41,819 nt of DNA from positions 1 through 41,819 of the forward strand of contig NZ_JAHEHZ010000013.1 of NCBI RefSeq assembly GCF_024639605.1, read 5' to 3'. This document shows, piece by piece, positions 12,144 to 41,819 of the stretch. The notes below the pieces were generated by a model. The model had not been told where the DNA came from. It did not search any database and saw only the letters and a list, made by a program, of their open reading frames with translations. Positions within the stretch are counted from its first letter, which is position 1. Each line of letters begins with the position of its first letter. Made by a program: the position numbers and the translations under genes. The stretch comes from Roseobacter sp. (lineage in GTDB: Bacteria > Pseudomonadota > Alphaproteobacteria > Rhodobacterales > Rhodobacteraceae).

Positions 12144-12823
12144 GTTCTGCGGTCTCCCGGGATGTCAAAATCCAGAACGACCGGCAAATGATCGGAGGCA
12201 CGGCGCGCTTTCAGCGATGTGTGGACGCCAAAGGTCAGGGCGGTCACGTCGCCGCATAAGACAAACCTGTCCAGCGCGGCCACACGACGGCTTGCGTGAA
12301 AGCTCAGACCAGGAGTTATCACTTCATGTCCGCCCACCGGCAGTTGCCGGCCCCAGTGGTTGAAATCCCCCGCGATGATGGTGGGAATGCCTGAGTTGCC
12401 GGCGTGGGCGCACAGGGCGTGCAGCTGTTGCTTTCTGATCCCTGTGGTCAGCGCCAGATGCGCGCCCACCACGGCAAAACCGTTGACATCAAAGTGTGCA
12501 GCAATCGCGCCGCGCGGCTCCCGTGCGGGCAGCGGAATGCGCTCCGTGCCCGGCGGCCGGAAACGGCCCGCCCTGTAGAGAATGGCATTGCCATGCCAGC
12601 CATGGCTCTGACCGGTCAGGGAATGTCTGGCAAGAATAAAACCGTGCTCATCACGCAGCCGGTCCAGCGGCAGGACGCCGGGGCGCTGGCCAAGGCGTTT
12701 ATCCGCCTCCTGAAGCACCACGATATCCGCATCCATTTCCCCGATGACATCCACGATCCGGTGCGGATCACGGCGCCAGTCCAGTCCGACAGCTTTGCGA
12801 ATGTTATAGCTTGCAATTCTCAT
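12137..12823 (-). CDS. Endonuclease/exonuclease/phosphatase family protein
   Basis: 228 aa starting MRIASYNIRKAVGLD. The reading frame stays open another 181 codons upstream, but that part is Arg/Ser/Pro-rich, unlike the family, and would run into the divergent promoter region, so the ATG at 12821-12823 is chosen. Family motifs are present: SYNIRK at the N-terminus, VVLQEAD (metal-binding Glu), IIAGDFNHWG and the C-terminal SDHLPVVLDF with the catalytic His. Members are Mg-dependent phosphodiesterases acting on nucleic acids, phosphoinositides or sphingolipids. Coupling to cardiolipin synthase by a 7-nt overlap hints at a phospholipid-related role, which is inference. Confidence 0.82.
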   Translation of the reverse strand: MRIASYNIRKAVGLDWRRDPHRIVDVIGEMDADIVVLQEADKRLGQRPGVLPLDRLRDEHGFILARHSLTGQSHGWHGNAILYRAGRFRPPGTERIPLPAREPRGAIAAHFDVNGFAVVGAHLALTTGIRKQQLHALCAHAGNSGIPTIIAGDFNHWGRQLPVGGHEVITPGLSFHASRRVAALDRFVLCGDVTALTFGVHTSLKARRASDHLPVVLDFDIPGDRRTC

Positions 12824-28071: not shown

Positions 28072-28228
28072 TATAATCTGGCTCCGATGTGCGACCGCTC
28101 CGGCGGCACGGGATTATCAACCAGACGCCCGGTCTCAACATACCTTCTGCCGCGTGGCGACGGACTACTCATCGCGCAGAGCGACAACGAGGATTGACCA
28201 TCCTGCCTGCAGGGCCAAAACTCGACGG

Positions 28229-29758
28229 ATGAACACTGAAACGCCCGCTGAAGTGAACCCGCCCTTCTGGTTGCTGATCACGCTGCAAACCGGAATTTCC
28301 GCCGCAGGTCTTGTCGTCGAAATTGTCGCCGCCCGGATGATCGCGCCATATGTGGGGATGAGCCTTTACACCTGGACCGCCATAATTGCAGTGGTTCTGG
28401 CGGGCTTTTCGCTTGGTCACTGGTGGGGCGGCAGGCTGGCTGCATTTCCCACGCGCGCGGCCATGATGCGGATCGGATGGGTGCTCGCTGCAGCGGCGGT
28501 ATTCACTGCCGGCGCCAGCCTGATCCTGCGCCTTGTGGCGCTGCCTGTTCTGCAATCCGTTGAAAACCCGCTGACGGCCATATCCTTCATTGCCATCGCC
28601 GCATTTTTTCTCCCGTCATTGTTTGCCGGCGTGCCGGCGCCGGTGCTTGCCGTTGTGGCGATGCGGGGGCGGCAGCGGTCGGAAGAGGCTCTGGGGGTGA
28701 TGTTCGCCGCCGGCGCGATGGGTGCGATTGTCGGCACCCTGCTGGCGGGGTTTCTCTTTATCTCCTGGATCGGGTCAACGGCGACGCTGCAAATCATGGC
28801 GGGGTTTTACGCAGTATCCGCGCTGATTGTCATGCTCTCCGGACGGGGCGAAAAAGCGACCCGCGCCGGGGCCGCCGGCACCATTGCCCTCACCGGGTTA
28901 CTGGCCTGGCACGCCCTCACGACAAACCCGGTCTGCACCGTTGAAAGCAGCTATTTCTGTATCCGGAGCGAGACCCTCTCTGCGGACGAGGAACCTCCTG
29001 TACGGGTCATGATCATCGACCATCTCGCGCATGGCATCTCTGCGCGCGACCATCCCGGGGTGATGTACACCGACCACACCGCGATGCTCGATGCGCTGCC
29101 CCGGATGAGGATGGGTGACCGGCCTTTCAGCTCTTTCCATATCGGTGGTGGCACATATTCGGTGCCGCGCGGGTGGGCGTCGCGCGGCCTCGATAACATC
29201 GTTGTGTCAGAGATCGACCCGGAAGTCACAAGAATGGCAACCGATGCCTTCTGGTTCGACCCCGGCACGGCCACTGTCCTGCACGAAGATGCCAGACGCG
29301 TGCTTTTAACCACGGAAAAAGAGTATGACGTGATCGTAGGCGATGCCTTTACCGATATTGCCGTACCCGCCCATCTCGTCACACTGGAATTCTTTCAGCT
29401 TGTCTCTCAACGACTGTCGGGGGGCGGGGTTTTCGCGATGAACGTGGTCGATAACGTGGACCGCCTCGCCGCTTTGTCTGCTGTTTACAAAACGCTTCTG
29501 CAGGTTTTTCCCAGCGTAGAAGTCTGGACCAAAGCGTAACCGCCGAGACCCGGGGAAAGAAGGGTCTTCGTGATACTCGCCGGACAATCCGACAGCCATG
29601 TGTCCGAGATCACAACCGGCACACCTGAGCCTGCAACTTTTGCGCCACTGGCGGACGCGTTTCTGAACGAAACTGTCGCGCGGACAAACGCGCCGTTGCT
29701 GACGGACGATTTTGCGCCCGTGGACCGGTTGATGGGGCTCGGCTCCGTGCTGGACTAG
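28229..29758 (+). pseudogene. Fused membrane/spermidine-synthase-like gene interrupted by in-frame TAA
   Basis: The reading frame from ATG 28229 gives 436 residues, then TAA at 29537-29539, then 72 further residues in the same frame to TAG at 29756-29758. The N-terminal half has about seven membrane segments (ISAAGLVVEIVAARMIAPYVG first). The rest is a spermidine-synthase-like methyltransferase fold with FHIGGGTYSVPRGW and VIVGDAFTDIAVP. The post-stop segment (RRVFVILAGQSD onward, with LLTDDFAPVDRLMG) is clearly the missing C-terminus of the same family, so this is one gene with a point nonsense change. It may be a pseudogene, a functional truncation or a sequence error. No strong ribosome-binding site was seen. 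The family's true reaction is uncertain. Confidence 0.82.
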
Positions 29759-30202: not shown

Positions 30203-30553
30203 TCAGCCGCCTCTTTCTTTCGTGGCACCGTGAATGTCCCAGAATGTCGCAACGACCGTCTGTCTGATCTCTTCGGGTTGCTGTTCGACAGCTTCAGACA
30301 GTGATTTCAGTTCTCGCCGGGTCTGGTGCAGACGGTCCAGCAACGGCAGGATCACAGGCAAAGCATCTGTCGGAAGCGACATGTCTTTTCTCAGATCACA
30401 CAGAAGCCTGATGCGCGCGATATCGACGTCATCGAACACCGGCCCGCGCTCGCTCTGAGCCGGACGCACCCAGCCCTCCCGGACCCAGACACGCAACTCT
30501 CTCAGACTGAGACGCCTGACCTGTGCCACGACCGTTTTTTCGTCAAGGCTCAT
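30203..30553 (-). CDS. cbpM: CbpM, modulator of the CbpA co-chaperone
   Basis: 116 aa. The MerR-like fold is visible as LSLRELRVWVREGWVRP followed by FDDVDIARIRLLCDLRKDMSLP and a C-terminal helix VILPLLDRLHQTRRELKSLSEAV. CbpM binds the J-domain of CbpA and restrains its activity. Its ATG overlaps the cbpA stop by 4 nt (ATGA), as expected for an obligate partner pair. Confidence 0.82.
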   Translation of the reverse strand: MSLDEKTVVAQVRRLSLRELRVWVREGWVRPAQSERGPVFDDVDIARIRLLCDLRKDMSLPTDALPVILPLLDRLHQTRRELKSLSEAVEQQPEEIRQTVVATFWDIHGATKERGG

Positions 30554-31482
30554 TTTGTCCTCCGCAGGTTCTTGCGCGGATCAAAGCCGCAGTGATCGCG
30601 CCATTGCCCCGCGAGCTCCTCCATCCGGGTGTCTGTTTTATCGGGCAACACGATCCGCAGACGCACAAACTGATCTCCCCGGCCACCTTTGCTTTTTGCT
30701 GTGCCCCTGCCTTTCAGACGGAGACGGTGACCGGAAGAAACCCCTTTGGGGATCGTCACGGACACAGGACCATCGATGGTTGGTACGCCGACCTTGCCGC
30801 CGAGGACCGCTTCATCGAAAGTGATGGGCAGTTCGACTTCGATGTTATCGCCGTCGCGCACGAATTCAGGATGCGCAAGCACAGAGACCGTTACGAACGC
30901 ATCGCCCGCCGGACCCTGTCCGAAACCGGGAGACCCTTTGCCACGCAGGCGCAGCGTCTGCCCGTCCCTGATGCCCGGCGGGATCGATATCTCGATCCCC
31001 TTGCCGTCCGGCATTGTCACGTTGCGTTTCGCACCGCGGGCGGCATCAAGGAAATCCACATCTATATGATAGCGGACATCAGTACCACGCGCGTGAAACT
31101 CCCGCCGCCCTGCCCCGCGGCCGAAACCGTGACGTCCGAACAGCCCCGAAAACAGATCAGAGTCGGCATCAAATCCGCCGAGGTCCGCATCCGGGTCGTA
31201 TCTGCGGCCACCCTCCTGTCCGGCATACTGGTGGTAATACTGCCTCTCCTGGCGCTCCTGGCCGCTGGCATCGATTTCACCCGCATCAAAGCGTCTGCGT
31301 TTTTCCGGATCACCCAGTAGATCATTCGCGGCGGCAACCGCCTGGAATTCAGCCTGCTTTTTCGCATCCCCCGGATGCAGATCCGGGTGCAGCTTTTTGG
31401 CGAGCCTGCGGTACGCCTTTTTGATGTCATCCTGTGTGGCAGTCTTAGCAACGCCAAGGATTTTATACGGATCGTCACTCAT
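30550..31482 (-). CDS. cbpA: CbpA-type DnaJ co-chaperone
   Basis: 310 aa. The N-terminal J-domain has DPYKILGVAKTATQDDIKKAYRR and the HPD tripeptide in KKLHPDLHPGD. A Gly/Phe-rich linker follows (FGRHGFGRGAG), then two C-terminal beta-sandwich domains without a zinc finger (VTMPDGKGIEISIPPGIRDGQTLRLRGKG), which defines CbpA rather than DnaJ. It delivers misfolded substrates to DnaK. Coupling to cbpM supports the assignment. It lies downstream of the universal stress and SpoIIAA-like genes on the same strand. Confidence 0.88.
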   Translation of the reverse strand: MSDDPYKILGVAKTATQDDIKKAYRRLAKKLHPDLHPGDAKKQAEFQAVAAANDLLGDPEKRRRFDAGEIDASGQERQERQYYHQYAGQEGGRRYDPDADLGGFDADSDLFSGLFGRHGFGRGAGRREFHARGTDVRYHIDVDFLDAARGAKRNVTMPDGKGIEISIPPGIRDGQTLRLRGKGSPGFGQGPAGDAFVTVSVLAHPEFVRDGDNIEVELPITFDEAVLGGKVGVPTIDGPVSVTIPKGVSSGHRLRLKGRGTAKSKGGRGDQFVRLRIVLPDKTDTRMEELAGQWRDHCGFDPRKNLRRTK

Positions 31483-31574: not shown

Positions 31575-32315
31575 TTATTCCGAAATCCAGGCCTTTGCCT
31601 CCTCCAGATCAGCGAGGTCAAAGACCATAACTTCGGTCGGCATCAGCATCCCGAAAAGCTTCGCGGAATGCCTGATCCATTCCTGATCGGTCACCAGCGC
31701 AAGTTTAGAAAACGTCGTCAGGTGTGAAAATCCGAATCTGAGATCATCCCACATCGCGCCGGGAGAATACCCGTCAAACCAGGTACCAAGAACGCAGATC
31801 ATTTTCAGTTTGTCATGCCCTTTCGCACGCCGCTCAATCAGCGGAACAAGCATGCCGGAATAGTCCTGCGAGGTGATCAGCCCCCTGATATCAATGCCCA
31901 CGACATCGCGCGGGAGACCTTCTAATTCGATGATGGCACCGGGGTGATCGTCTTCGGTCTGCGCCCAGGCGACCGCGTCATCTGTCGCGTCCTTGTTGAA
32001 ACGCCGCACCTTCGCCTGAACAAAATGATCGACAAGAAGCCGTGCCAGCCACAGCAGTTTACTGTCGCTTACAATGGCAACCTTCCGGACGAGACTATGG
32101 TGTCCCTGCACAAATTTCAGGTGCTTTTTCAGCGCACTGAAATCCGCCCAGAAGGGCGCACTTTTCGTTTGCAGAACGAGGTTGGGGACCCGGTCGGTTT
32201 CATTGATGTAGTCATTGATCTTCCGGCTGAGCTCATCAATATCTTCAGCGCGCAGAAGTCCTTCCGGCGTGATCACCGCAATGTTCTCACGTGGACGGAT
32301 GTCTGTCGTCAGCAT
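31575..32315 (-). CDS. Tandem SpoIIAA-like (STAS-fold) protein
   Basis: 246 aa made of two similar halves, about 1-118 and 124-246. Both halves follow a STAS/SpoIIAA-like pattern: a strand (IAVITPEGLLRAEDIDELSRKI; VGIDIRGLITSQDYSGMLVPLI), a central FWADFSALKKHLKF or PGAMWDDLRFGFSHL helix, a VAIVSDSKLL or LALVTDQEWI strand, and a final AxxWAQ/AKAWIS helix. SpoIIAA-like proteins are small cytosolic or membrane-associated domains often encoded near stress genes; no enzymatic role is known. The domain is usually single, so the duplication is notable. The gene is 63 nt downstream of the universal stress protein gene and probably co-transcribed. Confidence 0.75.
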   Translation of the reverse strand: MLTTDIRPRENIAVITPEGLLRAEDIDELSRKINDYINETDRVPNLVLQTKSAPFWADFSALKKHLKFVQGHHSLVRKVAIVSDSKLLWLARLLVDHFVQAKVRRFNKDATDDAVAWAQTEDDHPGAIIELEGLPRDVVGIDIRGLITSQDYSGMLVPLIERRAKGHDKLKMICVLGTWFDGYSPGAMWDDLRFGFSHLTTFSKLALVTDQEWIRHSAKLFGMLMPTEVMVFDLADLEEAKAWISE

Positions 32316-32378: not shown

Positions 32379-32786
32379 TTATCTAACCACATGCACAGCG
32401 CAGGACGCATGTCTCACGACATGTGATGCTGTTGATCCGAGAAAATAGTCCTTCACGCCCGGACGGTGAGAGGCGATTATAATGAGATCATTGCCGTACT
32501 GCCCCGCATAATCGAGTATTGTACGTCCCGGATGCCCTTCCAGAATGACGCCTTCGGCGCCCGTCAGATTCTGTGCCAGACGGTCCATTTTCTGATGCAG
32601 TGTGACACGCAGTTCTTTTTGCAGATCTTCCGTTATATAGGACTTTGCATAGCCGGGCAGACGCTCAATCACATGAAGCAAAGTGATTTTCGCGCCTGGC
32701 GTGGCAAGCAGGCCGGCCAGCTTTACAGGTGCGCTTTTGTCGTGGTCGTCATCGAATACGACCGGCACGAGGATGTTGTTATACAT
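32379..32786 (-). CDS. Universal stress protein (UspA family)
   Basis: 135 aa, single Usp domain. It starts YNNILVPVVFDDDHDK and has a C-terminal nucleotide-binding region HRPGVKDYFLGSTASHVVRHA ending VHVV. Usp proteins accumulate under starvation or low oxygen and bind ATP or partners. An FNR-type site (32840-32853) lies 54 nt upstream of the start, with a -10-like AATAAC 21 nt from its edge, so induction on oxygen limitation is likely. It is probably the first gene of the run down to the 102-aa protein. Confidence 0.87.
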   Translation of the reverse strand: MYNNILVPVVFDDDHDKSAPVKLAGLLATPGAKITLLHVIERLPGYAKSYITEDLQKELRVTLHQKMDRLAQNLTGAEGVILEGHPGRTILDYAGQYGNDLIIIASHRPGVKDYFLGSTASHVVRHASCAVHVVR

Positions 32787-32839
32787 GATGTTTTCCTTCC
32801 CGATATTCGCCTGTTATTGCGCAAAAAACCGCCCCGGCA

Positions 32840-32853
32840 TTGTTCCAGATCAA
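32840..32853 (-). promoter_or_regulatory. FNR/FnrL-type site upstream of usp (one mismatch)
   Basis: The minus strand reads TTGATCTGGAACAA, matching TTGA-N6-TCAA at 7 of 8 fixed bases. A hexamer AATAAC (32818-32813) lies 21 nt beyond its edge, the geometry of a class II FNR-activated promoter for usp. Confidence 0.55.
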
Positions 32854-32939
32854 TTCACCGGGCCGGGCACCTTCAGATCGTGCGGTTTTCGGGCCCTGAT
32901 CGACCTGATTTCGGTGGCCGCGATGACGGGCACCGGGGA

Positions 32940-32953
32940 TTGAGATTGATCAA
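32940..32953. promoter_or_regulatory. FNR/FnrL-type site in the usp-phaC gap
   Basis: TTGAGATTGATCAA matches TTGA-N6-TCAA exactly. It is 293 nt upstream of the phaC start. TACCCT at 32976-32981 is a weak candidate -10 at 22 nt, so the direction and target are unclear. Confidence 0.5.
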
Positions 32954-33246
32954 TGCCAGTCCGTCCGTGCCCTGGTACCCTTTTATCAGCGGGCGGCCCG
33001 GATATCTGCAACCACTCTGATTACCGGACGGTGTAAAATGCTGAAGGACTTGAGGGGGGGAGATCACGGTTCTCTCTCCGGGGAAAGGCTCTGCCTTCGC
33101 GAATAATTCTGCGTCGACCGCGCGAAAGGGGAGATTATGCGGGGCTCACAGCCCGCCGCAGAAAGCAGCGCACATGACGCTTCACATTGCAGGAAGGCCG
33201 GGGGACAGGATTTCACCGGCACAGGTTTCACCGAAAGGCTGAGAGT

Positions 33247-34893
33247 ATGACAGACCCGGAACGAAAACGCCTTGATCCGGCGTGGCACTCGATGCTCGGC
33301 CAGATCACGGGCGGTATCTCTCCGGCCGCGCTGATCAATGCCGGTGTCGACTGGGCGCTGCACCTGGCCGCATCGCCGGACAAGCAATCGGATCTGCTCA
33401 GAGAGGCTCTGACCGGCCTTGCGGCGACAGACCCTGCCGAAGACCCGCGATTTTCGGACCCGGCCTGGACGAGATTTCCCGCAAACGCCATGGCACTGAA
33501 CTATCTTGCGGCGCAAAACTGGTGGGACCTTGCCACGAGGGATGTCCGCGGCGTGGATCCTAAACATGCGAGTATCGTGAATTTTGCCACGCGGCAGTGG
33601 CTGGACATATTTTCTCCGGCGAATTTTGCGCTGACCAATCCACAGGTGCTGCAACGCACCTTCGAGGAGGCCGGACAGAACCTGATCCGGGGCGCGCGAT
33701 ACTGGATGGAAGACCTGAACCGCCTGATCTCGCATCATCCCCGCAGGCCGAGCACCTTCACAGTCGGAGAGGATCTGGCCACGACACCCGGAGACGTGGT
33801 GCTGCGCAACGACCTGATTGAGCTGATCCGGTACCGCCCGACGACAGCCAACGTACACGCCGAACCGATCCTGATCGTGCCTGCGTGGATTATGAAGTAC
33901 TATATTCTGGACCTCACGCAGCAGCGTTCGCTGGTCGCTTATCTGCGCGATCAGGGGTTCGAGGTTTATATCATCTCCTGGAAAAACCCCGACGAAGAGG
34001 ATGCCGCCCGGTCGATGCAGGACTACGTCGATCTGGGCATCAGGGCGGCGATTGAGACCATACGGTCCCGTGGAGCCTCTTCTCTTCATGCGGTCGGATA
34101 CTGTCTGGGAGGCACGTTGCTGGCAATTGTGGCCTCCGCCATGGCGCGCGACGGCGACAAATCCCTGTGCTCTGTCAGCCTGCTGGCCTCACAGGTCGAT
34201 TTCTCCGAACCGGGGGAACTTGGCCTGTTCATGAACGAAAGCCAGGTCACCTTTCTGGAAGACATGATGGCAACGCGCGGCTATCTCAGAGCGGATCAGA
34301 TGGCCGGCGCGTTTCAGCTTTTGCGGTCAAACGATCTGATCTGGAGCCGCGTGATCCGGCATTATCTGCTGGGAGAGCGCACGCCTGATAACCCGCTGAT
34401 GGCATGGAACGCGGATGCCACCCGCATGCCTGCGCAGATGCATTCAGAGTACCTGCGGCGCCTGTTTCTGCACAACGATCTGGCCAAGGGGCGGTTTATG
34501 GTGGACACCGCTTCGGTGGCGCTCACCGATATCCGCTGCCCGCTTTACTGCGTGGCGACCGAAGAGGATCATGTCTCGCCCTGGAAATCGGTCTACCGGC
34601 TTTTGCTGCTGACGGACACGGACGTTACTTTTGTGCTGACCAACGGCGGGCATAACGGCGGGATTCTGTCCGAGCCCGGTCAACCTGGCCGATATTTCCG
34701 GACAGGTCACAAAGCGGAAGGTGATCCCTACGTCACCGCCACAAACTGGCTCGATCGTCATGCACCGCAGGACGGGTCGTGGTGGGACAACTGGTCAGAC
34801 TGGCTTCGCAATCACAGTCATGGACGGAAAAGCGCCCGTCCGTCGCCCGTGAAGGCTCTGGGCGCTGCACCGGGCCGCTATGTCTTCGGATAA
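33247..34893 (+). CDS. phaC: Class I polyhydroxyalkanoate synthase (PhaC)
   Basis: 548 aa from ATG 33247 with GAAAGG upstream; a TTG 20 codons earlier is unlikely. PhaC polymerises hydroxyacyl-CoA into PHA at the granule surface. The lipase-like box GYCLGG places the nucleophile at Cys286; Asp441 (EEDHVSPW) and His469 (NGGHNGG) complete the triad. The N-terminal PANFALTNPQVLQRTFEEAGQNL block is typical of class I enzymes. It faces the phasin gene tail to tail with 5 nt between stop codons. No phaA/phaB genes are in the window, so this may be an additional, stress-associated synthase. Confidence 0.9.
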   Translation: MTDPERKRLDPAWHSMLGQITGGISPAALINAGVDWALHLAASPDKQSDLLREALTGLAATDPAEDPRFSDPAWTRFPANAMALNYLAAQNWWDLATRDVRGVDPKHASIVNFATRQWLDIFSPANFALTNPQVLQRTFEEAGQNLIRGARYWMEDLNRLISHHPRRPSTFTVGEDLATTPGDVVLRNDLIELIRYRPTTANVHAEPILIVPAWIMKYYILDLTQQRSLVAYLRDQGFEVYIISWKNPDEEDAARSMQDYVDLGIRAAIETIRSRGASSLHAVGYCLGGTLLAIVASAMARDGDKSLCSVSLLASQVDFSEPGELGLFMNESQVTFLEDMMATRGYLRADQMAGAFQLLRSNDLIWSRVIRHYLLGERTPDNPLMAWNADATRMPAQMHSEYLRRLFLHNDLAKGRFMVDTASVALTDIRCPLYCVATEEDHVSPWKSVYRLLLLTDTDVTFVLTNGGHNGGILSEPGQPGRYFRTGHKAEGDPYVTATNWLDRHAPQDGSWWDNWSDWLRNHSHGRKSARPSPVKALGAAPGRYVFG

Positions 34894-34918
34894 CCGGCTC
34901 AGTTCTTGTCTGAGCCGG
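34894..34918. terminator. Bidirectional hairpin at the phaC/phasin convergence
   Basis: CCGGCTCAG (34894-34902) and CTGAGCCGG (34910-34918) form a perfect 9-bp stem with a 7-nt loop. It starts at the base after the phaC stop and includes the last codons and stop of phasin. No T-tract follows on either strand, but the stem is strong and symmetrical. Confidence 0.5.
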
Positions 34919-35243
34919 CAGAAGCCAGGGCATCGTTACTCATCCGGACCAGTTTGCCGGTTTCCGCGCTGTACTGCTCCAGCGCCTTCTGAATGAATTC
35001 GGCCTGTATGTTCTGAAGCTCAGAGACGTTTTTGCAATGCAGGATCGCGTGTTGTGTTTTCACGTCCTCTTTGACCCGCTCCGCCATAAAACTCAGGACC
35101 TCGCTGCCGATATCCCCCAGTGCTTCCAGCCATGCCGTACTCAGACCGACCATATTTCCAAATCCGGCTTCCTGCAGCTCTGCAAGTTTCTGAAGTTGTG
35201 CGCCTTGCGGAAGGTCGGACTGATTTTCTGTCTTGCTTGCCAT
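34899..35243 (-). CDS. Phasin family protein
   Basis: 114 aa, all-helical. It contains LQKLAELQEAGFGNMVGLSTAWLEALGDIGSEVLSFMAERVKEDVKT and a later ELQNIQAEFIQKALEQYSAETGKL, the normal phasin pattern of amphipathic helices that coat PHA granules. Its partner is the convergent phaC. Upstream is an exact FNR-type site (35302-35315) with a perfect TATAAT at 35280-35275 on the minus strand, 21 nt from the site edge, so induction by low oxygen is strongly suggested. Confidence 0.85.
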   Translation of the reverse strand: MASKTENQSDLPQGAQLQKLAELQEAGFGNMVGLSTAWLEALGDIGSEVLSFMAERVKEDVKTQHAILHCKNVSELQNIQAEFIQKALEQYSAETGKLVRMSNDALASAGSDKN

Positions 35244-35301
35244 AATCTATGCTCCGGTTGCTGTTTGCGGCGCGATTATATCAGTTTGAATCCGCCCGAT
35301 C

Positions 35302-35315
35302 TTGATATCGCTCAA
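35302..35315. promoter_or_regulatory. FNR/FnrL-type site between phasin and the P-type ATPase
   Basis: TTGATATCGCTCAA matches TTGA-N6-TCAA exactly and lies midway between two divergent starts. Leftward a perfect TATAAT (35280-35275) is 21 nt away. Rightward TATCAC (35339-35344) is 23 nt away. One dimer could activate both genes. Confidence 0.68.
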
Positions 35316-35373
35316 TCCGCAGTGCCGGCATGAACGGCTATCACGGGCGGGCATACAAAACCGGAGAAAGCTG

Positions 35374-37950
35374 GTGACGGCAAGTACGCGTGACAAGGGG
35401 CTTACTGATACTGAAGTCCTGACAGCCCGGCAGACATCAGGCTGGAACGAACTGCCGGCTGTGACACCGGTTAAGCCGGTCGTGGTCTTTTTGCGCCAGT
35501 TCACCAGCTTTCTGGTGGTCATCCTGATCATAGCAGCGGGTGTCGCTCTGGTGCTGGGAGAGGTGATTGACGCCATCACCATCGGGCTCGTCGTGATTCT
35601 GAATGCCGTTCTGGGCTTTGTGCAGGAATGGAAAGCAGAAACCGCGCTTACCGCATTGCGCAACATGCTGGCCCCGATGGCCATGGTTCTGCGCGACGGA
35701 CAGGAAAAGATAATCCCTGCCCGCGAAATCGTACCCGGAGATATCCTCGTGCTGGCGCCGGGGGCGAAAATCGCAGCGGACGCGGTCGTCATCCGCAGCG
35801 CAGAGCTGACAGTTGACGAAAGCGTTCTGACCGGTGAATCCCTGCCCGTCGCAAAATCAGACGGGGCGACGACCGGCGAGGTTTTTGCCGGAACATCCGT
35901 CACGTCGGGGCGCGCAGAAGCCCGGGTGACAGCCACCGGCGCGCATACCGAATTCGGCCGGATCGCGCATCTGACCGGGTCAGTGGGTACCGGCGTTACA
36001 AACCTGCAATCCAAGCTGAGCGGTCTGGCGCGCCAGCTTGGCATTGCGGCGCTGCTTGTGGCCGCGACCGTAGCCGGACTGGGTATCGCACTCGGGCGTG
36101 ACCTTGTGGAAATGGTCATGACCGGACTGTCGTTGTCGGTTGCCATGGTACCTGAGGGGTTGCCGGCGGTCGTGACCATCACGCTGGCTCTGGGCGCCAC
36201 GGCAATGGTGCGACACAAGGCGCTCGCGCGGCGCCTGCAGGCGGTCGAGACACTTGGTGCGGCATCGGTCATCTGCACCGACAAAACCGGAACTCTTACC
36301 GAAAACAAAATGACCGCCACACTGATATGGACCGCTGATCGCAGCTATGACGTGACCGGCACCGGCTATGATCCTGCCGGCCACATCGCCTTTGGCGGTG
36401 CACGGGTGCGGGCCGGGGACGATCCGGTTCTTGCGGCTGTTCTGCAGGCCGGGCTCTTTTGCAGCCATGCACAGCTGCGCCGTGAAGGGGAAAGCTGGCA
36501 CATGACCGGCGCCCCCACAGAGGGCGCACTGATCACGCTGGCTTACAAAGGATGGTGCGACCTGCCCGACGAACGCGGGCTGCTGGCCGAAATCCCTTTC
36601 AGCAGCGCGCGCAAACGGATGAGCGTGCTTTATCTGACCGGCGACGGGTATTGCGTGCTCACCAAAGGGGCTCCTGAACAGATCCTCGGGATCTGCACGG
36701 AGGTGATGACCGGGGCCGGTATCCGCCCGCTTGCGCCCGGGGACATCGAAGAGATAACCCGGGCCTACACCGAAATGGCCGGGAGAGGATTGCGGGTCAT
36801 CGCACTCGCCCGCCGCCGCACCGACACCCCGCAGATCGTCGAAGAGAACCTTACATTTCTGGGACTGGTCGGCCTGATTGATCCGCCGCGCGCCGAAGTG
36901 CGGAGCGCGATTGCCTCGGCAAGGTCCGCCGGCATCCGCGTGATTATGATTACAGGAGACAGCCCGGTCACCGCCGCCGCCATCGCAGAACAGCTCTCCC
37001 TTACTGTGACGCAGGCGCTGACCGGGCAGGAGCTCGACGCGCTCGATGAGGCGGCTCTGCTGGAAACACTTTCAGGTGACGTGCTCTTTGCCCGCACGCG
37101 GCCCGAGCAGAAAATGCGGATCGTCGCAGCCCTGCAGTCACAGAACCAGATCGTTGCCATGACCGGTGACGGGGTCAATGACGCGCCCGCCCTCAAACAG
37201 GCGGATATCGGCGTGTCGATGGGCATCCGGGGTACGGATGTGGCGCGCGATGCCTCGGATCTGGTGCTGCTGGACGACAACTTTGCCACCATCGTCCGCG
37301 CCATCGGCGAGGGCCGTCGCCAGTTCGCCAACGTCCGCAAATTCGTACGCTACCTGCTGTCGTCAAATGCAGGCGAGGTGATCGCCCTGGTGGTCAATAT
37401 CGCAATTGGCGGCCCGCTGGTATTTCTCGCCACCCAGATCCTCTGGATGAACCTTATCACCGACGGGGTGACAGCCGTGGCGCTGGGTCTGGAAAAGGCT
37501 GAACCGGATCACATGCAACACCCGCCGCGCGACAAAACTGATGCCATACTGGGCTACCGCGGCATTGCCACGATCATCGTGCTGGGCCTCTATACCGGAC
37601 TGTCGAGCCTGTGGATTTTCTTTCACCTTATGGATCAGGGAGTGGATCTGGCGCGCACCACCGCCTTCACTGGCATGGTGGTTTTTGAAAAGGCGAGCGT
37701 ATTTGCTTTTCGCTCACTGCGCCTGCCCGGATCGCGCATCGGCTGGTTCAGCAACCCGTTTTTGCTCTGTGCTCTTGCCCTGACACTGGGCGCGCAGGTG
37801 CTGGCGATCTACTGGCCGCCGCTGCAGACCCTGTTGCGCACCGTGCCGATCGGGCTTGCGGAATGGCAGTGGATTGCTCTGTTCGCGCTGCCGGTCCTCA
37901 TCCTGCCCGAGGCTTTCAAACTGCTGCTCATGCGCGGTCAGCGCACGTAA
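35374..37950 (+). CDS. P2A-type cation-transporting ATPase (Ca2+/Mn2+-like)
   Basis: 858 aa from GTG 35374, with GGAGAAA 7 nt upstream; a TTG at 35302 would put the N-terminus over the FNR site. P-type landmarks: TGES (153-156), the M4 motif PEGLP (260-264), phosphorylation site DKTGT (Asp303), KGAPEQIL in the nucleotide domain and TGDGVNDAPAL near residue 600. About ten membrane helices. PEGLP and overall layout match SERCA/PMR1-like pumps, so Ca2+ or Mn2+ export is likely; Mg2+ or Na+ cannot be excluded. Its 3' end overlaps the convergent exchanger gene by 13 nt. Confidence 0.85.
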   Translation: MTASTRDKGLTDTEVLTARQTSGWNELPAVTPVKPVVVFLRQFTSFLVVILIIAAGVALVLGEVIDAITIGLVVILNAVLGFVQEWKAETALTALRNMLAPMAMVLRDGQEKIIPAREIVPGDILVLAPGAKIAADAVVIRSAELTVDESVLTGESLPVAKSDGATTGEVFAGTSVTSGRAEARVTATGAHTEFGRIAHLTGSVGTGVTNLQSKLSGLARQLGIAALLVAATVAGLGIALGRDLVEMVMTGLSLSVAMVPEGLPAVVTITLALGATAMVRHKALARRLQAVETLGAASVICTDKTGTLTENKMTATLIWTADRSYDVTGTGYDPAGHIAFGGARVRAGDDPVLAAVLQAGLFCSHAQLRREGESWHMTGAPTEGALITLAYKGWCDLPDERGLLAEIPFSSARKRMSVLYLTGDGYCVLTKGAPEQILGICTEVMTGAGIRPLAPGDIEEITRAYTEMAGRGLRVIALARRRTDTPQIVEENLTFLGLVGLIDPPRAEVRSAIASARSAGIRVIMITGDSPVTAAAIAEQLSLTVTQALTGQELDALDEAALLETLSGDVLFARTRPEQKMRIVAALQSQNQIVAMTGDGVNDAPALKQADIGVSMGIRGTDVARDASDLVLLDDNFATIVRAIGEGRRQFANVRKFVRYLLSSNAGEVIALVVNIAIGGPLVFLATQILWMNLITDGVTAVALGLEKAEPDHMQHPPRDKTDAILGYRGIATIIVLGLYTGLSSLWIFFHLMDQGVDLARTTAFTGMVVFEKASVFAFRSLRLPGSRIGWFSNPFLLCALALTLGAQVLAIYWPPLQTLLRTVPIGLAEWQWIALFALPVLILPEAFKLLLMRGQRT

Positions 37951-38975
37951 TAATAGGCGATCAGGCTGCAACCAAAGGTCAGCAGCACAAGGATCGAATC
38001 GAGGCCAACACTGCCAAACCCGGGCTTGCGCCGCACGATCAGACCGGAGAGAAAAATCGCCGTCACCGCGATGCCGAAAGCCAGCGACAGTGTCACCGTG
38101 CGCGAGACATCCTGCAGGATCGGGCCTGAGCGAAACAGGATATCGGCGGGAAATACCAGCACGAGCATAATCAGGTTGCTGCCGAAAATATTCGAAATTG
38201 CCATCGTATAGGCTCCGATGCGCACGGCCGTAATGCTGGTCGTCAATTCCGGCAGCGATGTCGCGCCGGCAAGCAGTGTCGCGCCGATGAACCCTTTGCC
38301 AAGCCCCGACTGCTCTGCAATCCGCTCCGCAAAGACCACCAGCAGCAGCCCGAAGATCAGGATCCCGGCACAGGCACCAACCGCCTGGCTGATAAGAAGC
38401 CGGTTACCCGTACCGGCCAGACCGGAGGGTGCGGGAAAGGGCAGCGGTTCCGGATCCGGAAGATCGACCGGAACCCAGTCGCTGGCCCCATCGTATTTGC
38501 GCAGCAACCAGATCGACCCGGCATAAACCACCGCAATCAGCACACTGCCCGGGCCGATCTGATAAAACGAAAACGTTTCGCCGAGGTTGATTACGATCAG
38601 TGTCACCGCAAGCAACATCACAAGAAGCGTGGCTTCGAGGGCATGATTGGCCTTGCGCGGATACCCGGTAATCGCCTGCTTTGCCCAGAAATCCGACATC
38701 GCGAGAATTGCGGTTTGCAGGGCAATCCCGCCAAAGAGGTTATTGAGCACCAGATCGCGGGATTGCTGCACGGCGGCAGTGAGCGTCGTGGCAACCTCCG
38801 GAAGGGACGTGGCAAGCGACAGCACCAGCAACCCCATAAGCGATTTGGCGAGCCGGTACCTGTCAGCCAGCGCGTCGGTCAGATACGCCAGCCGCGCCCC
38901 GGCCACCCAGACCACGCCTGCGCAGAGCGCAAAGCACAGGATGCTCAGCAGAAAGGAGGTGGCGGGAACCTGCAT
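37938..38975 (-). CDS. Sodium/calcium exchanger (CaCA) family membrane protein
   Basis: 345 aa with about ten helices and the two inverted alpha-repeats of the family: LVLSLATSLPEVATTLTAAV (about 51-70) and LLAGATSLPELTTSITAVRIG (about 234-254) followed by ISNIFGSN. These residues bind the exchanged cations. A hydrophilic loop with an Asp/Pro stretch (VPVDLPDPEPLPFPAPS) separates the halves. Together with the convergent P2A ATPase it suggests calcium or related cation export. AAAGGAGGTGG lies upstream of the start. An exact FNR-type site is 34 nt upstream of the ATG, with GATAAA 19 nt beyond it. Confidence 0.83.
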   Translation of the reverse strand: MQVPATSFLLSILCFALCAGVVWVAGARLAYLTDALADRYRLAKSLMGLLVLSLATSLPEVATTLTAAVQQSRDLVLNNLFGGIALQTAILAMSDFWAKQAITGYPRKANHALEATLLVMLLAVTLIVINLGETFSFYQIGPGSVLIAVVYAGSIWLLRKYDGASDWVPVDLPDPEPLPFPAPSGLAGTGNRLLISQAVGACAGILIFGLLLVVFAERIAEQSGLGKGFIGATLLAGATSLPELTTSITAVRIGAYTMAISNIFGSNLIMLVLVFPADILFRSGPILQDVSRTVTLSLAFGIAVTAIFLSGLIVRRKPGFGSVGLDSILVLLTFGCSLIAYYYVR

Positions 38976-39008
38976 GACGGCCTTTTATCAGAGGCATGCC
39001 GGGATAAT

Positions 39009-39022
39009 TTGACATGCCTCAA
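39009..39022. promoter_or_regulatory. FNR/FnrL-type site between the exchanger and VIT-family genes
   Basis: TTGACATGCCTCAA matches TTGA-N6-TCAA exactly in the 81-nt divergent gap. On the minus strand GATAAA (38989-38984) is a possible -10 for the exchanger gene; the rightward side shows only a weak TCAGAG. Confidence 0.55.
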
Positions 39023-39056
39023 TGCAGATCAGATGCGCGGGCGTCAGAGTGTTCAG

Positions 39057-39773
39057 ATGACACCCGAACACGGACACAGCCCTCAGGAAGTCGCAGCCCG
39101 CCTGTCTGCAGGCAGCAACAACAATTATCTCAAAGATATGATCTATGGCGGGATTGATGGCGGGGTCACGACCTTTGCCATCGTTGCCGGTGTCGCGGGC
39201 GCCGGCCTCTCTCATGGTATCATCGTCACGCTGGGGATTGCCAACATTCTGGCCGATGGATTTTCGATGGCGGCCAGCAATTATGCCGGCACCAAGGCCG
39301 AAGCTGATGACCGCAAGCGGATTATCCGCATCGAAGAACGCCATATTGAACAGCACCGGGAGGGAGAGCTGGAGGAACTGCGCCAGATCCTGGCACAGCG
39401 CGGATTGTCGGGTCAGGTCCTTGACGAGGCGACGCGGGAAATCTCGGAGAACAAAGAAAAGTGGGTCGCGCTCATGCTTACCGATGAATATGGGCTCACG
39501 CGTGATGCGCCCCACCCGATCCGCGCGGCGCTGGCGACCTTTGCCGCGTTTTTGCTGGCGGGCTCAATCCCGCTCATACCTTTTGTCACCGGGATGGAAC
39601 CCGCTTTCGAAATATCCGTGTTCGCCACGCTGCTGACCTTTTTCCTGATCGGAACAGGCAAAAGCCGCTGGTCCCTGTCGGCCTGGTGGTGGTCGGGCGC
39701 GGAAACACTCCTGATCGGCGCACTCGCCGCGCTGATCGCTTATTTCGTTGGCGGACTTTTTGCGCATGGCTGA
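39057..39773 (+). CDS. VIT1/CCC1-family iron/manganese transporter
   Basis: 238 aa from ATG 39057 (ATG 39033 also possible; neither has a strong ribosome-binding site). The frame runs back to 38643 but that part is antisense to the exchanger gene. The family signature DMIYGGIDGGVTTFAIVAGVAGAGLS begins helix 1, followed by ILADGFSMAASNYAGTKAEAD and an acidic amphipathic stretch RIEERHIEQHREGELEELRQILAQRG, the metal-gathering domain. Three helices follow. Members move Fe2+ or Mn2+ out of the cytosol. It is divergent from the cation exchanger, extending the cation-homeostasis theme. Confidence 0.84.
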   Translation: MTPEHGHSPQEVAARLSAGSNNNYLKDMIYGGIDGGVTTFAIVAGVAGAGLSHGIIVTLGIANILADGFSMAASNYAGTKAEADDRKRIIRIEERHIEQHREGELEELRQILAQRGLSGQVLDEATREISENKEKWVALMLTDEYGLTRDAPHPIRAALATFAAFLLAGSIPLIPFVTGMEPAFEISVFATLLTFFLIGTGKSRWSLSAWWWSGAETLLIGALAALIAYFVGGLFAHG

Positions 39774-39789
39774 GCCCGACGGGTTCCGA

Positions 39790-39830
39790 TTGAGCAGGAT
39801 CAAACCGGAGGTCTGCCGGGCCGCTAAAAT
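39790..39830 (+). promoter_or_regulatory. FNR-type site with -10 element upstream of the M50 protease gene
   Basis: TTGAGCAGGATCAA (39790-39803) matches TTGA-N6-TCAA exactly, and TAAAAT (39825-39830) follows after 21 nt, the same spacing as at phasin and usp. The predicted start is about 39837, just before the GAGGA ribosome-binding site of the next gene. Confidence 0.68.
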
Positions 39831-39851: not shown

Positions 39852-41003
39852 ATGTTTTCAGATTCGATCAGACTGTTTTCACTTGATGGGTTCGAGATCA
39901 GGCTGGATAAAAGCTGGCTGCTGATTGTGGCTCTGATCACCTGGAGCCTTTCACAACAGTACTTTCCCCAAACCTTCCCGGATCAGACACCAGGCACTTA
40001 TCTCGCTATGGGGCTCTTTGCCTGCATCTGCTTTTTCGGCTCACTGCTGCTGCATGAACTGGCGCATTCCGTTGTGGCCCGGCGCTTTGGCATCCGGGTA
40101 AAAAGCATAACTCTGTTTCTTTTTGGCGGCGTTGCGGAACTGGCCTCCGAACCTGACCGGCCACGTGCCGAATTCTGGATCGCCGTTGCCGGCCCGGCGA
40201 TGAGTCTTTTTCTGGCATTCGGGTTCTGGGTTTTTGCGGCCTTCACAGATGTTATGCTGACACAAAGCCCGATACCGGTTGTGCTGCACTATCTTGCGCT
40301 CATCAATTTTATTCTGGCCGTATTCAATCTTGTACCGGCCTTTCCGCTGGATGGCGGACGGATTCTGCGCGCAGCCCTCTGGCACCGAACCGGCGATGTC
40401 CTCGGGGCAACCGAAACAGCGGCGCGCTCCGGCACATTCTTTGCCTTTTTGCTGATGACACTCGGCGTTCTGTTTCTCTTTCAGGGGGCGCTCCTTGCCG
40501 GCTTCTGGTACATCCTGATCGGCGGTTTCGTACTGATGGCCGCCCGGTCGAGCTATCAGAAGCAACTGGTCCAAACAGTTTTCGACCACAAGACAGTACA
40601 AATGCTGATGACGCCGGATCCGGTGACCACGGCGCCCGATGTGACACTTGATGACTTTGTAAATCATGTCATGATCGACCGCCGTGCCAGCTTTGTGCCG
40701 GTCGTCGAAAACGGCGTCCTGCTCGGTCATATGGACCACCGCGTGCTGGAAGGGACCGATCGGGAAAACTGGCCCGGCATGCGTGTCGATGACATCTTTG
40801 AGGGGCTCACCGCAGAGGCCTCGGTCGCGCCTGACATGCCGGTCAGAGACCTGATGGCGCTGATCACAAAGACCGGGCGGCGCAAATTTATGGTGGTAGA
40901 CGATCACCGGTTGTGCGGCGTGATCACACTGTCTGATATTGTCCGCTATCTGAGGGTCAGTGATTTTCTCATGCACCAGCAGAACCAGGTGACAAAAAAA
41001 TGA
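39852..41003 (+). CDS. Site-2 protease (M50) family metalloprotease with two CBS domains
   Basis: 383 aa. The membrane protease core has the zinc motif HELAH (His68, Glu69, His72) in LLLHELAHSVVARRFG and the third ligand in FPLDGGRILRAAL (Asp167), with about six helices. Residues about 245-378 form a CBS pair (MLMTPDPVTTAPDVTLDDFVNHV; then VAPDMPVRDLMALI with FMVVDDHRLCGVITLSDIVRYL), which in this subfamily senses adenine nucleotides. It cleaves membrane-embedded substrates; the target is unknown. An FNR-type promoter lies upstream and its stop overlaps the next gene by 4 nt. Confidence 0.88.
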   Translation: MFSDSIRLFSLDGFEIRLDKSWLLIVALITWSLSQQYFPQTFPDQTPGTYLAMGLFACICFFGSLLLHELAHSVVARRFGIRVKSITLFLFGGVAELASEPDRPRAEFWIAVAGPAMSLFLAFGFWVFAAFTDVMLTQSPIPVVLHYLALINFILAVFNLVPAFPLDGGRILRAALWHRTGDVLGATETAARSGTFFAFLLMTLGVLFLFQGALLAGFWYILIGGFVLMAARSSYQKQLVQTVFDHKTVQMLMTPDPVTTAPDVTLDDFVNHVMIDRRASFVPVVENGVLLGHMDHRVLEGTDRENWPGMRVDDIFEGLTAEASVAPDMPVRDLMALITKTGRRKFMVVDDHRLCGVITLSDIVRYLRVSDFLMHQQNQVTKK

Positions 41004-41578
41004 CGAATGTGCTGATCGTGCAGGGCCATCCGGATGGCGCAGAACAGCATCTGTGCCACGCGATTGCACAGGCTTACCGGTCGGCCGCAGAGGCTGCCGG
41101 GCACGGTGTGACCGTCATCAGTATTGCCGGTGAAGTCATTCCCTATCTGCGGTCAAAGGCTGAGTGGGAGGGGGTTGATCTTCCGCAGGTTGCGGTCACC
41201 GGGCAAAAGGCGGTTCAGGACGCGGAACACATCGTTCTGATTTACCCTTTGTGGATGGGTGATGTGCCGGCGATGCTGAAGGCATGGCTGGAGCAGGTGC
41301 TGCGCAAGGGATTTGCATTTGAACTCTACGGGCGGACCTGGCGCCCGGCACTCGCAGGCAGATCCGCACGGATCATCGTCACGACGGGCATGCCCGGAGC
41401 CGCCTACAGGTGGTTCTACATGGCGCATTCTCTGCGCAGCCTTGAGCGCAACATCCTCAGGTTCTGTGGTATCCGGCCGGTCAGACGGAGCATCTTCGGG
41501 AACGCCGAAGACCCTTCCGGCAAAGCTCAGGCGAGGATGCTGACGACGGCGACGCGTCTTGGCGCGCGTGCGAATTAG
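41000..41578 (+). CDS. NAD(P)H-dependent oxidoreductase, flavodoxin-like fold
   Basis: 192 aa. The NQO/MdaB-like fold is indicated by NVLIVQGHPDG at the N-terminus, the LIYPLWMGDVPAMLKAWLEQVLRKGFAFEL block and the TTGMPGAAYRWFYM flavin loop. Such proteins bind FMN/FAD and reduce quinones or act as regulatory subunits of potassium efflux systems (KefF-like). The ATG overlaps the protease stop (ATGA), so the two are translationally coupled and share the FNR-type promoter. The substrate is unknown. Confidence 0.83.
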   Translation: MTNVLIVQGHPDGAEQHLCHAIAQAYRSAAEAAGHGVTVISIAGEVIPYLRSKAEWEGVDLPQVAVTGQKAVQDAEHIVLIYPLWMGDVPAMLKAWLEQVLRKGFAFELYGRTWRPALAGRSARIIVTTGMPGAAYRWFYMAHSLRSLERNILRFCGIRPVRRSIFGNAEDPSGKAQARMLTTATRLGARAN

Positions 41579-41759: not shown

Positions 41760-41819
41760 ATGCACAGCGATCCAAATGACGGCGCAATCCTCGACACTCT
41801 GCTGAAGGCCGCGCCGGAC
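41760..41819 (+). CDS. Possible start of a gene running off the window
   Basis: An ATG at 41760 opens 20 codons to the window edge (MHSDPNDGAILDTLLKAAPD) with a GAAAGAAAG purine run just upstream. The 181 nt before it contain no other gene, so this is a plausible start. The product cannot be identified from this fragment. Confidence 0.35.
   Translation, partial: MHSDPNDGAILDTLLKAAPD

Follow-up and report, generated by a model that had tools for sequence, protein, structure and literature searches.

A conserved CRP/FNR-family regulatory island over phasin, cation-transport and M50 peptidase genes in the Roseobacter group and its probable control by a linked hFixL-FxkR-FixK-like cascade

The window analysed here, the 41,819 nt of contig NZ_JAHEHZ010000013.1 from a draft genome of Roseobacter sp., contains a block of genes for a universal stress protein (usp), polyhydroxyalkanoate (PHA) synthase, a phasin, cation transporters and an M50 peptidase, whose intergenic gaps carry target sites of the 14-mer pattern TTGA-N6-TCAA. 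The existence of a real and conserved CRP/FNR-family regulatory island in this block was supported by the sequence comparison with relatives. Its sites are most likely read mainly by a FixK-type protein, belonging to an hFixL-FxkR-FixK-like cascade whose genes lie beside the island in relatives, rather than by FnrL or DNR, and the block is probably a low-oxygen stress island controlled mainly by this linked three-step cascade. The DNA itself shows the sites with their spacing and conservation and, in relatives, the genes linked to the island, the K-box upstream of fixK and the heme-pocket residues of the kinase, as described below. Genomes and loci are given by our own numbers (G and L), and the papers identified by PMC numbers are cited from the part of their text that was available.

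Target Sites in the Window

Four exact sites (32940, 35302, 39009 and 39790), the only ones in the whole window, and one site with a single mismatch (32840) were located by pattern scan in the gaps of the block, at the same coordinates as in a first-pass annotation of this DNA:

32840..32853, minus strand: single-mismatch FNR/FixK-type site upstream of usp; a one-mismatch site is also present in G008
32940..32953, no strand assigned: exact site TTGAGATTGATCAA in the usp/phaC gap
35302..35315, minus strand: exact site TTGAGCGATATCAA (read towards phasin) in the gap common to the P-type ATPase gene
39009..39022, minus strand: exact site TTGAGGCATGTCAA (read towards the exchanger) in the gap common to VIT1
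39790..39803, plus strand: exact site TTGAGCAGGATCAA upstream of the M50 gene

All five are intergenic, although intergenic DNA makes up only 817 of the 10,004 bp between positions 31575 and 41578. The view of the first-pass annotation that such clustering is not due to chance was confirmed: 100 dinucleotide shuffles of the window gave on average 0.68 and at most 3 exact sites, compared to the 4 observed. The draft genome of the same strain (3.67 Mb in 260 contigs, 90% complete) contained 43 exact sites versus 9 for the reversed control pattern; from this density 0.08 exact sites are expected in the 6,990-bp block, with a Poisson probability of about 2e-6 for at least four, a figure that applies to a block picked after the sites had been seen. 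For single-mismatch sites the window showed no enrichment (17 versus 12.45 expected, with 17 reached by 16 of 100 shuffles), and the 32840 site therefore carries little weight alone, although G008 has a one-mismatch site at the same place.

Conservation of the Sites in Relatives

The comparison was based on the following genes of the block:

32379..32786, minus strand: universal stress protein gene usp (Pfam Usp, 3.1e-25)
33247..34893, plus strand: PHA synthase gene phaC (Pfam PhaC_N, PHBC_N)
34899..35243, minus strand: phasin gene (Pfam Phasin_2, 4.3e-13)
35374..37950, plus strand: cation P-type ATPase gene (Pfam; best NCBIfam models of Ca-transporting types, below cut-off)
37938..38975, minus strand: Na/Ca exchanger family gene (Pfam Na_Ca_ex, 2.8e-29)
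39057..39773, plus strand: VIT1-family gene (Pfam VIT1, 2.7e-60; ATG at 39057 set from the sequence)
39852..41003, plus strand: gene of an M50 peptidase-family protein with CBS domains (Pfam Peptidase_M50, CBS)

VIT1 served as the anchor, with matches at 59% identity or more in 10 of the 58 sampled relatives and a short fragment only in a further one, G047; of 180 matching loci, 80 from named genomes were kept. The conservation sample, chosen by hand, consisted of the window and 24 Roseobacter-group loci with island genes; of the latter, all but L096 and L110 have the full cascade (22 relatives). Eleven permuted words of the same composition were used as the control, and only readable gaps were counted.

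Poor conservation in orthologous gaps had been named in the first-pass annotation as a ground for refutation, but the sites of the island core were kept there. The exact site was present before the phasin gene in 16/16 gaps, before the P-type ATPase gene in 13/13, before the exchanger gene in 16/16, before VIT1 in 24/25 and before the M50 gene in 21/23, while all permuted words together scored 0, 0, 2, 2 and 1, respectively; phasin and ATPase genes use one gap and exchanger and VIT1 genes another, so these counts are not independent, nor are related genomes independent events. The kinase gene of the linked cascade had the exact site in 16 of 22 gaps (permuted words 0), and none was found in the gaps upstream of fixK (0/21) or of the regulator gene (0/3 readable). 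Genomes G001, G007, G013 and G015, all of them genus relatives with FixK, lack VIT1: three of them (G001, G007 and G015) retain phasin and M50 genes with their sites, and G013 retains the ATPase and exchanger genes as well as a phasin gene preceded by its site, the M50 gene not having been found there.

The usp and usp/phaC-gap sites were dropped as part of the conserved island core, because their position is kept only in the window and its closest relative G008 (phaC gap 2/11, usp 2/2), the latter with the single-mismatch site TTGTTTCAGATCAA at the position matching window 32840. Of the single low-oxygen block suggested by the first-pass annotation, what stood was a conserved CRP/FNR-family island over the phasin, P-type ATPase, exchanger, VIT1 and M50 genes with class II-like spacing, but not the part resting on these two sites. 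Its stress-protein component persisted in a general form, with other usp and Hsp20 genes located nearby in relatives. In Roseobacter insulae (L089) one Usp gene lies between the M50 and kinase genes and another beyond fixK. In locus L267 of G007, Hsp20 and Usp genes are present, an exact site lying at 12695 close to where Hsp20 starts. The same locus has a carbamate kinase gene, which is located beside another P-type ATPase gene and preceded by an exact site some 85–100 bp upstream. The presence of Usp, Hsp20 and carbamate kinase genes near the island thus supports the general idea of a stress block.

The 14-mer TTGAGATTGATCAA of window position 32940 was also detected at L266:3626, L268:5543 and L269:3401 (G001, G013, G015) with flanks different from those in the window, and in G007 a site matching it, with one base different, adjoins the carbamate kinase gene. 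In G008 (L077, 9032–10250) no match to the phasin or to residues 1–475 of the P-type ATPase was found, and PhaC is directly followed by ATPase residues 476–858.

Promoter Geometry and Half-Sites

Hexamers of the -10 type were located 21 nt from the sites of four genes:

32813..32818, minus strand: -10-like hexamer of usp, AATAAC, 21 nt from the 32840 site
35275..35280, minus strand: -10 hexamer of phasin, TATAAT, 21 nt from the site
38982..38987, minus strand: -10-like hexamer of the Na/Ca exchanger, TAAAAG, 21 nt from the site
39825..39830, plus strand: -10 hexamer of the M50 gene, TAAAAT, 21 nt from the site

The hexamers of usp, phasin and M50 had been noted at exactly this distance in the first-pass annotation, from which the fourth, that of the exchanger, was absent. 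Class II geometry of the CRP/FNR regulators implies a site at a fixed distance of some 21–22 nt from the -10 hexamer. In 53 promoters from the window and relatives (16 phasin, 16 exchanger and 21 M50), the 'TA' of the -10 hexamer started 21 nt (37) or 22 nt (12) past the site in 49 cases, versus at most 5 for any other offset from 0 to 33, and this fixed spacing fits the predicted class II arrangement.

The upstream half of the site, read towards the gene, was TTGAG in 49 of the same 53 promoters (phasin 15/16, exchanger 15/16, M50 19/21), but in only one of the 16 kinase sites. Within the strain's own genome either G5 or C10 was present in 4/4 island sites versus 5/39 sites elsewhere (Fisher p 0.001, for a comparison chosen after the sites had been seen).

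Kinase, Response Regulator and FixK Genes Linked to the Island

A CRP/FNR domain search in 28 genomes revealed, in at least five island genomes (G002, G004, G005, G008 and G016), a match located 5.6–6.0 kb from the VIT1 start. The protein has an FNR-type recognition helix and lacks the N-terminal cysteine cluster. The gene of an OmpR-type response regulator is divergent from this fixK gene and is adjoined by the gene of a hybrid PAS histidine kinase with a receiver. All three were detected by tblastn beside the island in 22 of 24 relatives (L077 and L083 being counted together with their continuations L196 and L199), and they also occur near exchanger and VIT1 genes in the rhizobial metagenome-assembled genome L115. 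The window stops 20 codons into the kinase gene, while the three genes are complete in G008:

41760..41819, plus strand: FixL-like hybrid kinase gene, first 20 codons up to the contig end; translation MHSDPNDGAILDTLLKAAPD, matching the G008 kinase

That the strain of the window also has fxkR and fixK is presumed from its relatives.

Within the genus, FixK at 66% identity or more was found in 10 of 18 relatives. A survey of the family (199 genomes, one per genus, FixK threshold E 1e-40) gave FixK in 20 genomes and VIT1 in 50, the latter including the strain's own. All six other survey genomes with VIT1 of at least 66% identity have FixK, either 4.4–5.6 kb from VIT1 (G194, G115, G093, G109), on another contig (G183) or near the other contig end (G209), and none of the 43 survey genomes with VIT1 at 65% identity or less had FixK linked to it. 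The FixK loci of other genera (20 loci from 19 of the 20 survey genomes, with G109 represented twice and G183 left out) included the regulator in 19, the kinase in 18 (that of L260 some 3.7 kb off) and the M50 gene in 12 cases.

The kinase of the relatives qualifies as a hybrid FixL, combining a FixL-type heme PAS, a histidine kinase and a C-terminal receiver. The closest solved structure to its PAS domain is FixL 1d06 (4.6e-26), and it is 41% identical over 509 amino acids, receiver included, to hFixL9 of Rhizobium leguminosarum plasmid pRL9, whose gene names were assigned by position from the available part of PMC7888657 and the sequence record. In PDB alignments the histidine of an HDGY motif and an arginine 20 residues on are aligned with FixL. 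They are taken here to be the heme histidine and the distal arginine, respectively. Among 36 kinases covering this region (hFixL9 excluded) the former was present in 34 and the latter in 35, the exceptions being L102 and L255.

The island regulator is 45% identical to FxkR9 and 47% to the homolog from R. etli. With FxkR9 as the query it was the best match in all five FixK-bearing genomes tested; the best scores in genomes without FixK were 153–158 bits (G010, G003, G014) and 181 bits (G012). By this one-way best-match search, the regulator can be regarded as a putative FxkR ortholog.

According to the available text of PMC7888657 and PMC4999443, the FxkR of Rhizobium recognises a K-box, GTTACA-N4-GTTACA, in front of fixK. 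Such a box was searched for in 41 fixK loci (L263 and L264 were excluded as repeats of L087 and L088, while other repeats and near-identical species stayed in) and found with at most two mismatches in 33, in 32 of which it was located at -82 to -95. It was free of mismatches in two loci only and mostly had the form G(T/A)TACA-N4-GATACA. GTTACA ranked first among 180 permuted words, the median word scoring 0, and the runner-up TGATAC (27/41) is a shifted reading of the same box.

The closest solved relative of the island FixK is FixK2, and its best NCBIfam model was the Caulobacter-type FixK (158.8 bits) versus 136 bits for FnrL, both below cut-off. The recognition helix read ETVSR in 30, ETISR in 6 and ETVCR in 5 of the 41 sequences, and the four N-terminal cysteines of FnrL were absent from every one of them. 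An FNR/FixK recognition helix without the 4Fe-4S cysteines is what defines FixK in the accessible part of Dufour 2010 (PMC2908626). In the tree the island FixK formed a clade apart from FnrL, with support of 68/85 when the rhizobial L115 was included and 92/95 without it.

Another CRP/FNR-family gene, with a REVVSR helix, lies upstream of phaC in G002 (L078:3862-4536) and G004 (L081:4429-5097) and is preceded by an exact TTGA-N6-TCAA site, at 52 and 63 nt from the start, respectively; a similar protein of G016 (L198:4032-4703) is encoded some 18 kb from phaC and lacks such a site. The 49-kb Tropicibacter oceani plasmid NZ_CP124618.1 bears a relative of the P-type ATPase together with divergent FxkR-like and FixK-like genes, directly beside which no kinase is annotated.

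Which Regulator Reads the Sites

Oxygen sensing, phosphotransfer and the binding and activation by FixK at the island are inferred from these features. In the proposed chain of events, the FixL-like hybrid kinase would sense falling oxygen by its heme-type PAS and hand phosphate to the OmpR-type FxkR-like response regulator, which would then bind the K-box some 90 bp upstream of fixK and switch this gene on. The cysteine-free FixK would bind the TTGAGCNATRTCAA-type sites and, positioned 21–22 nt upstream of the -10 hexamer, serve as a class II activator at the promoters of the phasin, Na/Ca exchanger and M50 genes, and probably activate the divergent P-type ATPase and VIT1 genes too. The site before the kinase gene in most relatives would allow feedback, and some of the same sites may be used by FnrL.

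The VIT1 gene offered a comparison between copies with and without linked fixK: the exact site was present in 24/25 island loci versus 4/25 unlinked copies (G018, G010, G012 and G237). In G018, FixK and the other island genes are encoded away from VIT1, and in G215, G171, G196 and G150 FixK is likewise located elsewhere in the genome and VIT1 has no exact site. The variant TTGA-N6-GCAA was found at -64 to -85 before 11 of the 25 unlinked copies (L229–L234, L236–L238, L242 and L085); it is possibly a weaker FnrL-type variant, so VIT1 may answer to FnrL there. The balance of the VIT1 sites favours FixK as the main reader in island genomes with FnrL as a possible partner, the separation of the two by this means being only partly clear. 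FnrL or a DNR-type protein had been the regulator proposed in the first-pass annotation, together with the statement that sequence cannot tell such regulators apart. This holds for the 14-mer itself, but FixK is favoured by the genes linked to the island, by the K-box and perhaps by the TTGAG half-site, and the original proposal was replaced.

A number of observations weigh against control by the linked cascade. The first of them concern its reach. No fixK ortholog (the best match being FnrL at 36%) and no fxkR ortholog (best FxkR9 match 152 bits) were found in the strain's own draft genome, which may be put down to the contig end and the 90% completeness, although this is not proven. Among the 24 relatives the cascade was not demonstrated in two: L096 ends too early, and L110 contains FixK, with neither kinase nor regulator found in its 5.8 kb. 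Seven of the 20 FixK loci of other genera (L246, L248, L251–L254 and L256) had no island gene of the window within 11–12 kb, so the cascade exists without this island as well. The site before the kinase is missing in 6 of 22 loci, including G008, and no such site is present in the window even when one mismatch is allowed. The exchanger of G013 had no exact site in about 1.1 kb upstream except for one near the kinase start.

The remaining objections concern the identity of the components and the specificity of the sites. A second OmpR-type regulator in G004 is nearly equal in its match with FxkR9 (193.8 versus 194.7 bits), and the K-box is poor, with 4–5 mismatches, in 4 of the 41 loci. The island FixK is hardly more similar to FixK9b (37%) than to the FnrL of the window's strain (35%), and in the midpoint-rooted tree, which has long branches, it joins FnrL before the pRL9 proteins FixK9a/9b (95/87), so that its name rests on the missing cysteines and not on proven orthology. 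Its ancestor may have been an Fnr whose cysteines were lost, an origin proposed for FixKf in the available part of Tsoy 2016 (PMC4999443). Finally, G010 and G012 are without FixK and G237 is not one of the 20 FixK survey genomes, yet VIT1 retains the exact site in all three, and an exact site was found in 14 of 56 distant VIT1 loci (those of 58 with 200 bp upstream) versus 1 for all permuted words together; the VIT1 sites in genomes without FixK imply that another FNR-type protein can serve them.

A two-stage scheme, in which the island is switched on by the FixK cascade when oxygen is down to about 1% and is controlled by FnrL, through the same sites, near anoxia, would be a wider form of the cascade explanation and not its opposite, and it has somewhat less than an even chance of being correct. 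Such a scheme is reported for R. leguminosarum in the accessible text of PMC7888657; the strain's own genome has FnrL, the relatives have both proteins, and their target sequences overlap, but the half-site difference may mean separation. Taken further, that difference leads to the tentative idea, to which we give a minor share of confidence, of the island as a self-contained low-oxygen module with a sensor cascade of its own, whose dialect, a TTGAGC upstream half-site, would be read by FixK and only poorly by FnrL. The coating of PHA granules, the pumping of divalent cations and intramembrane proteolysis would then start at another oxygen level than the respiratory regulon of FnrL.

Direct regulation of the island by FnrL, an iron-sulphur oxygen sensor, is unlikely, and FnrL as the sole regulator was rejected. 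The strain does encode FnrL with its cysteine motif (L017 on C79), a site is located 16 bp upstream of the fnrL start, and the FnrL targets of Dinoroseobacter shibae and Rhodobacter include usp genes according to the available parts of PMC5398030 and PMC4634722; the exact VIT1 sites in some genomes without FixK and the TTGA-N6-GCAA variants point the same way. However, FnrL is not linked to the island as FixK and its K-box are in relatives, the island sites differ from the others in G5/C10 (the post hoc comparison above), and exact VIT1 sites occur mostly with linked FixK.

A nitric oxide-responsive DNR/NNR-type regulator is a very improbable reader: DNR sites look alike (PMC2908626, available part) and three Dnr regulators act in D. 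shibae (PMC5398030, available part), but the island-linked CRP/FNR protein is FixK-like and not of the DNR/NNR type, and the candidate was rejected on this ground, unlinked DNR genes as such not having been searched for. Chance matching, in favour of which speaks the ordinary frequency of single-mismatch sites, can practically be discarded, since it is contradicted by the excess of exact sites over the shuffles, their intergenic placement and their conservation with a fixed -10 spacing that the permuted words did not have.

Other Genes of the Window

The last complete gene before the kinase is the following:

41000..41578, plus strand: flavodoxin-fold oxidoreductase gene, KefF/KefG-like (Pfam Flavodoxin_2)

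Its NCBIfam KefF score was 52.5 bits, below the cut-off of 210, and phaC scored 493.7 bits with the class I PHA synthase model, below the cut-off of 622.65. Pfam also detected a DnaJ and a SpoIIAA-like protein among the window genes. A DnaJ-like gene with an adjoining small MerR-type gene is located left of the island (30203–31482), a pair which resembles CbpA-CbpM, and a fused MFS/spermidine synthase gene (NCBIfam NF037959, 598 bits) occupies positions 28154–29539.

Comparison with Known Systems

In the available text of Tsoy 2016 (PMC4999443), covering 50 genomes, FnrN/FnrL is the only such regulator given for the Rhodobacterales and the origin of the hFixL-FxkR-FixK cascade is placed in the ancestor of the Rhizobiaceae, while FixK is described as generally restricted to Rhizobiales in that of Dufour 2010 (PMC2908626). 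A PHA polymerase under FnrN/FixK is predicted in some Rhizobiales (PMC4999443, available part). Neither an hFixL-FxkR-FixK cascade in Rhodobacterales nor its link with a phasin/cation/M50 island was found in the openly searchable literature, a search outside which most subscription papers lie. A K-box-bearing cascade in the Roseobacter group would change the picture in which FixK lies outside the Rhodobacterales. If the proposed control is true, the marine Roseobacter group has a second way of sensing oxygen, and microoxia becomes linked with PHA granules, calcium/metal transport and membrane proteolysis; if the more tentative insulated half-site dialect is true as well, a portable package for survival of microoxia would have spread in the group, partly on plasmids.

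The FnrL regulon of Rhodobacter and Dinoroseobacter resembles the island in its similar target sites and in having usp genes among its targets, as far as the available texts go, and the word phasin is absent from the main texts of the two Rhodobacter FnrL regulon papers searched. FnrL senses oxygen via its own 4Fe-4S cluster, whereas the island-linked regulator has none of the FNR cysteines and in this respect falls outside an FnrL regulon.

With the FixLJ-FixK2 system of Bradyrhizobium the island shares FixK2 as the closest solved relative of its FixK, but FixJ is replaced by an OmpR-type regulator. The table of microoxia proteins in the accessible part of PMC6515984 lists usp proteins and a phasin, whose row does not bear the last-column mark of the cbb3 oxidase rows and therefore gives no evidence for FixK2 control of the phasin.

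In its components the cascade resembles that of Rhizobium etli and of R. leguminosarum pRL9, previously described from nodule-forming Rhizobium. Both have a hybrid PAS kinase with the heme-pocket residues and a C-terminal receiver, an OmpR-type regulator, a cysteine-free FixK and TTGA-N6-TCAA targets, and the island fixK and fxkR are divergent with the K-box between them, as are fixK9b and fxkR9. The island version differs in its occurrence in Rhodobacterales, in the second half of the K-box, which is usually GATACA, and in a FixK that did not group with FixK9a/9b in the midpoint-rooted tree. Its kinase gene adjoins fxkR, whereas hfixL9 follows fixK9a in pRL9, and, while the pRL9 genes adjoin those of a cbb3 oxidase, the island version adjoins PHA, cation and protease genes.

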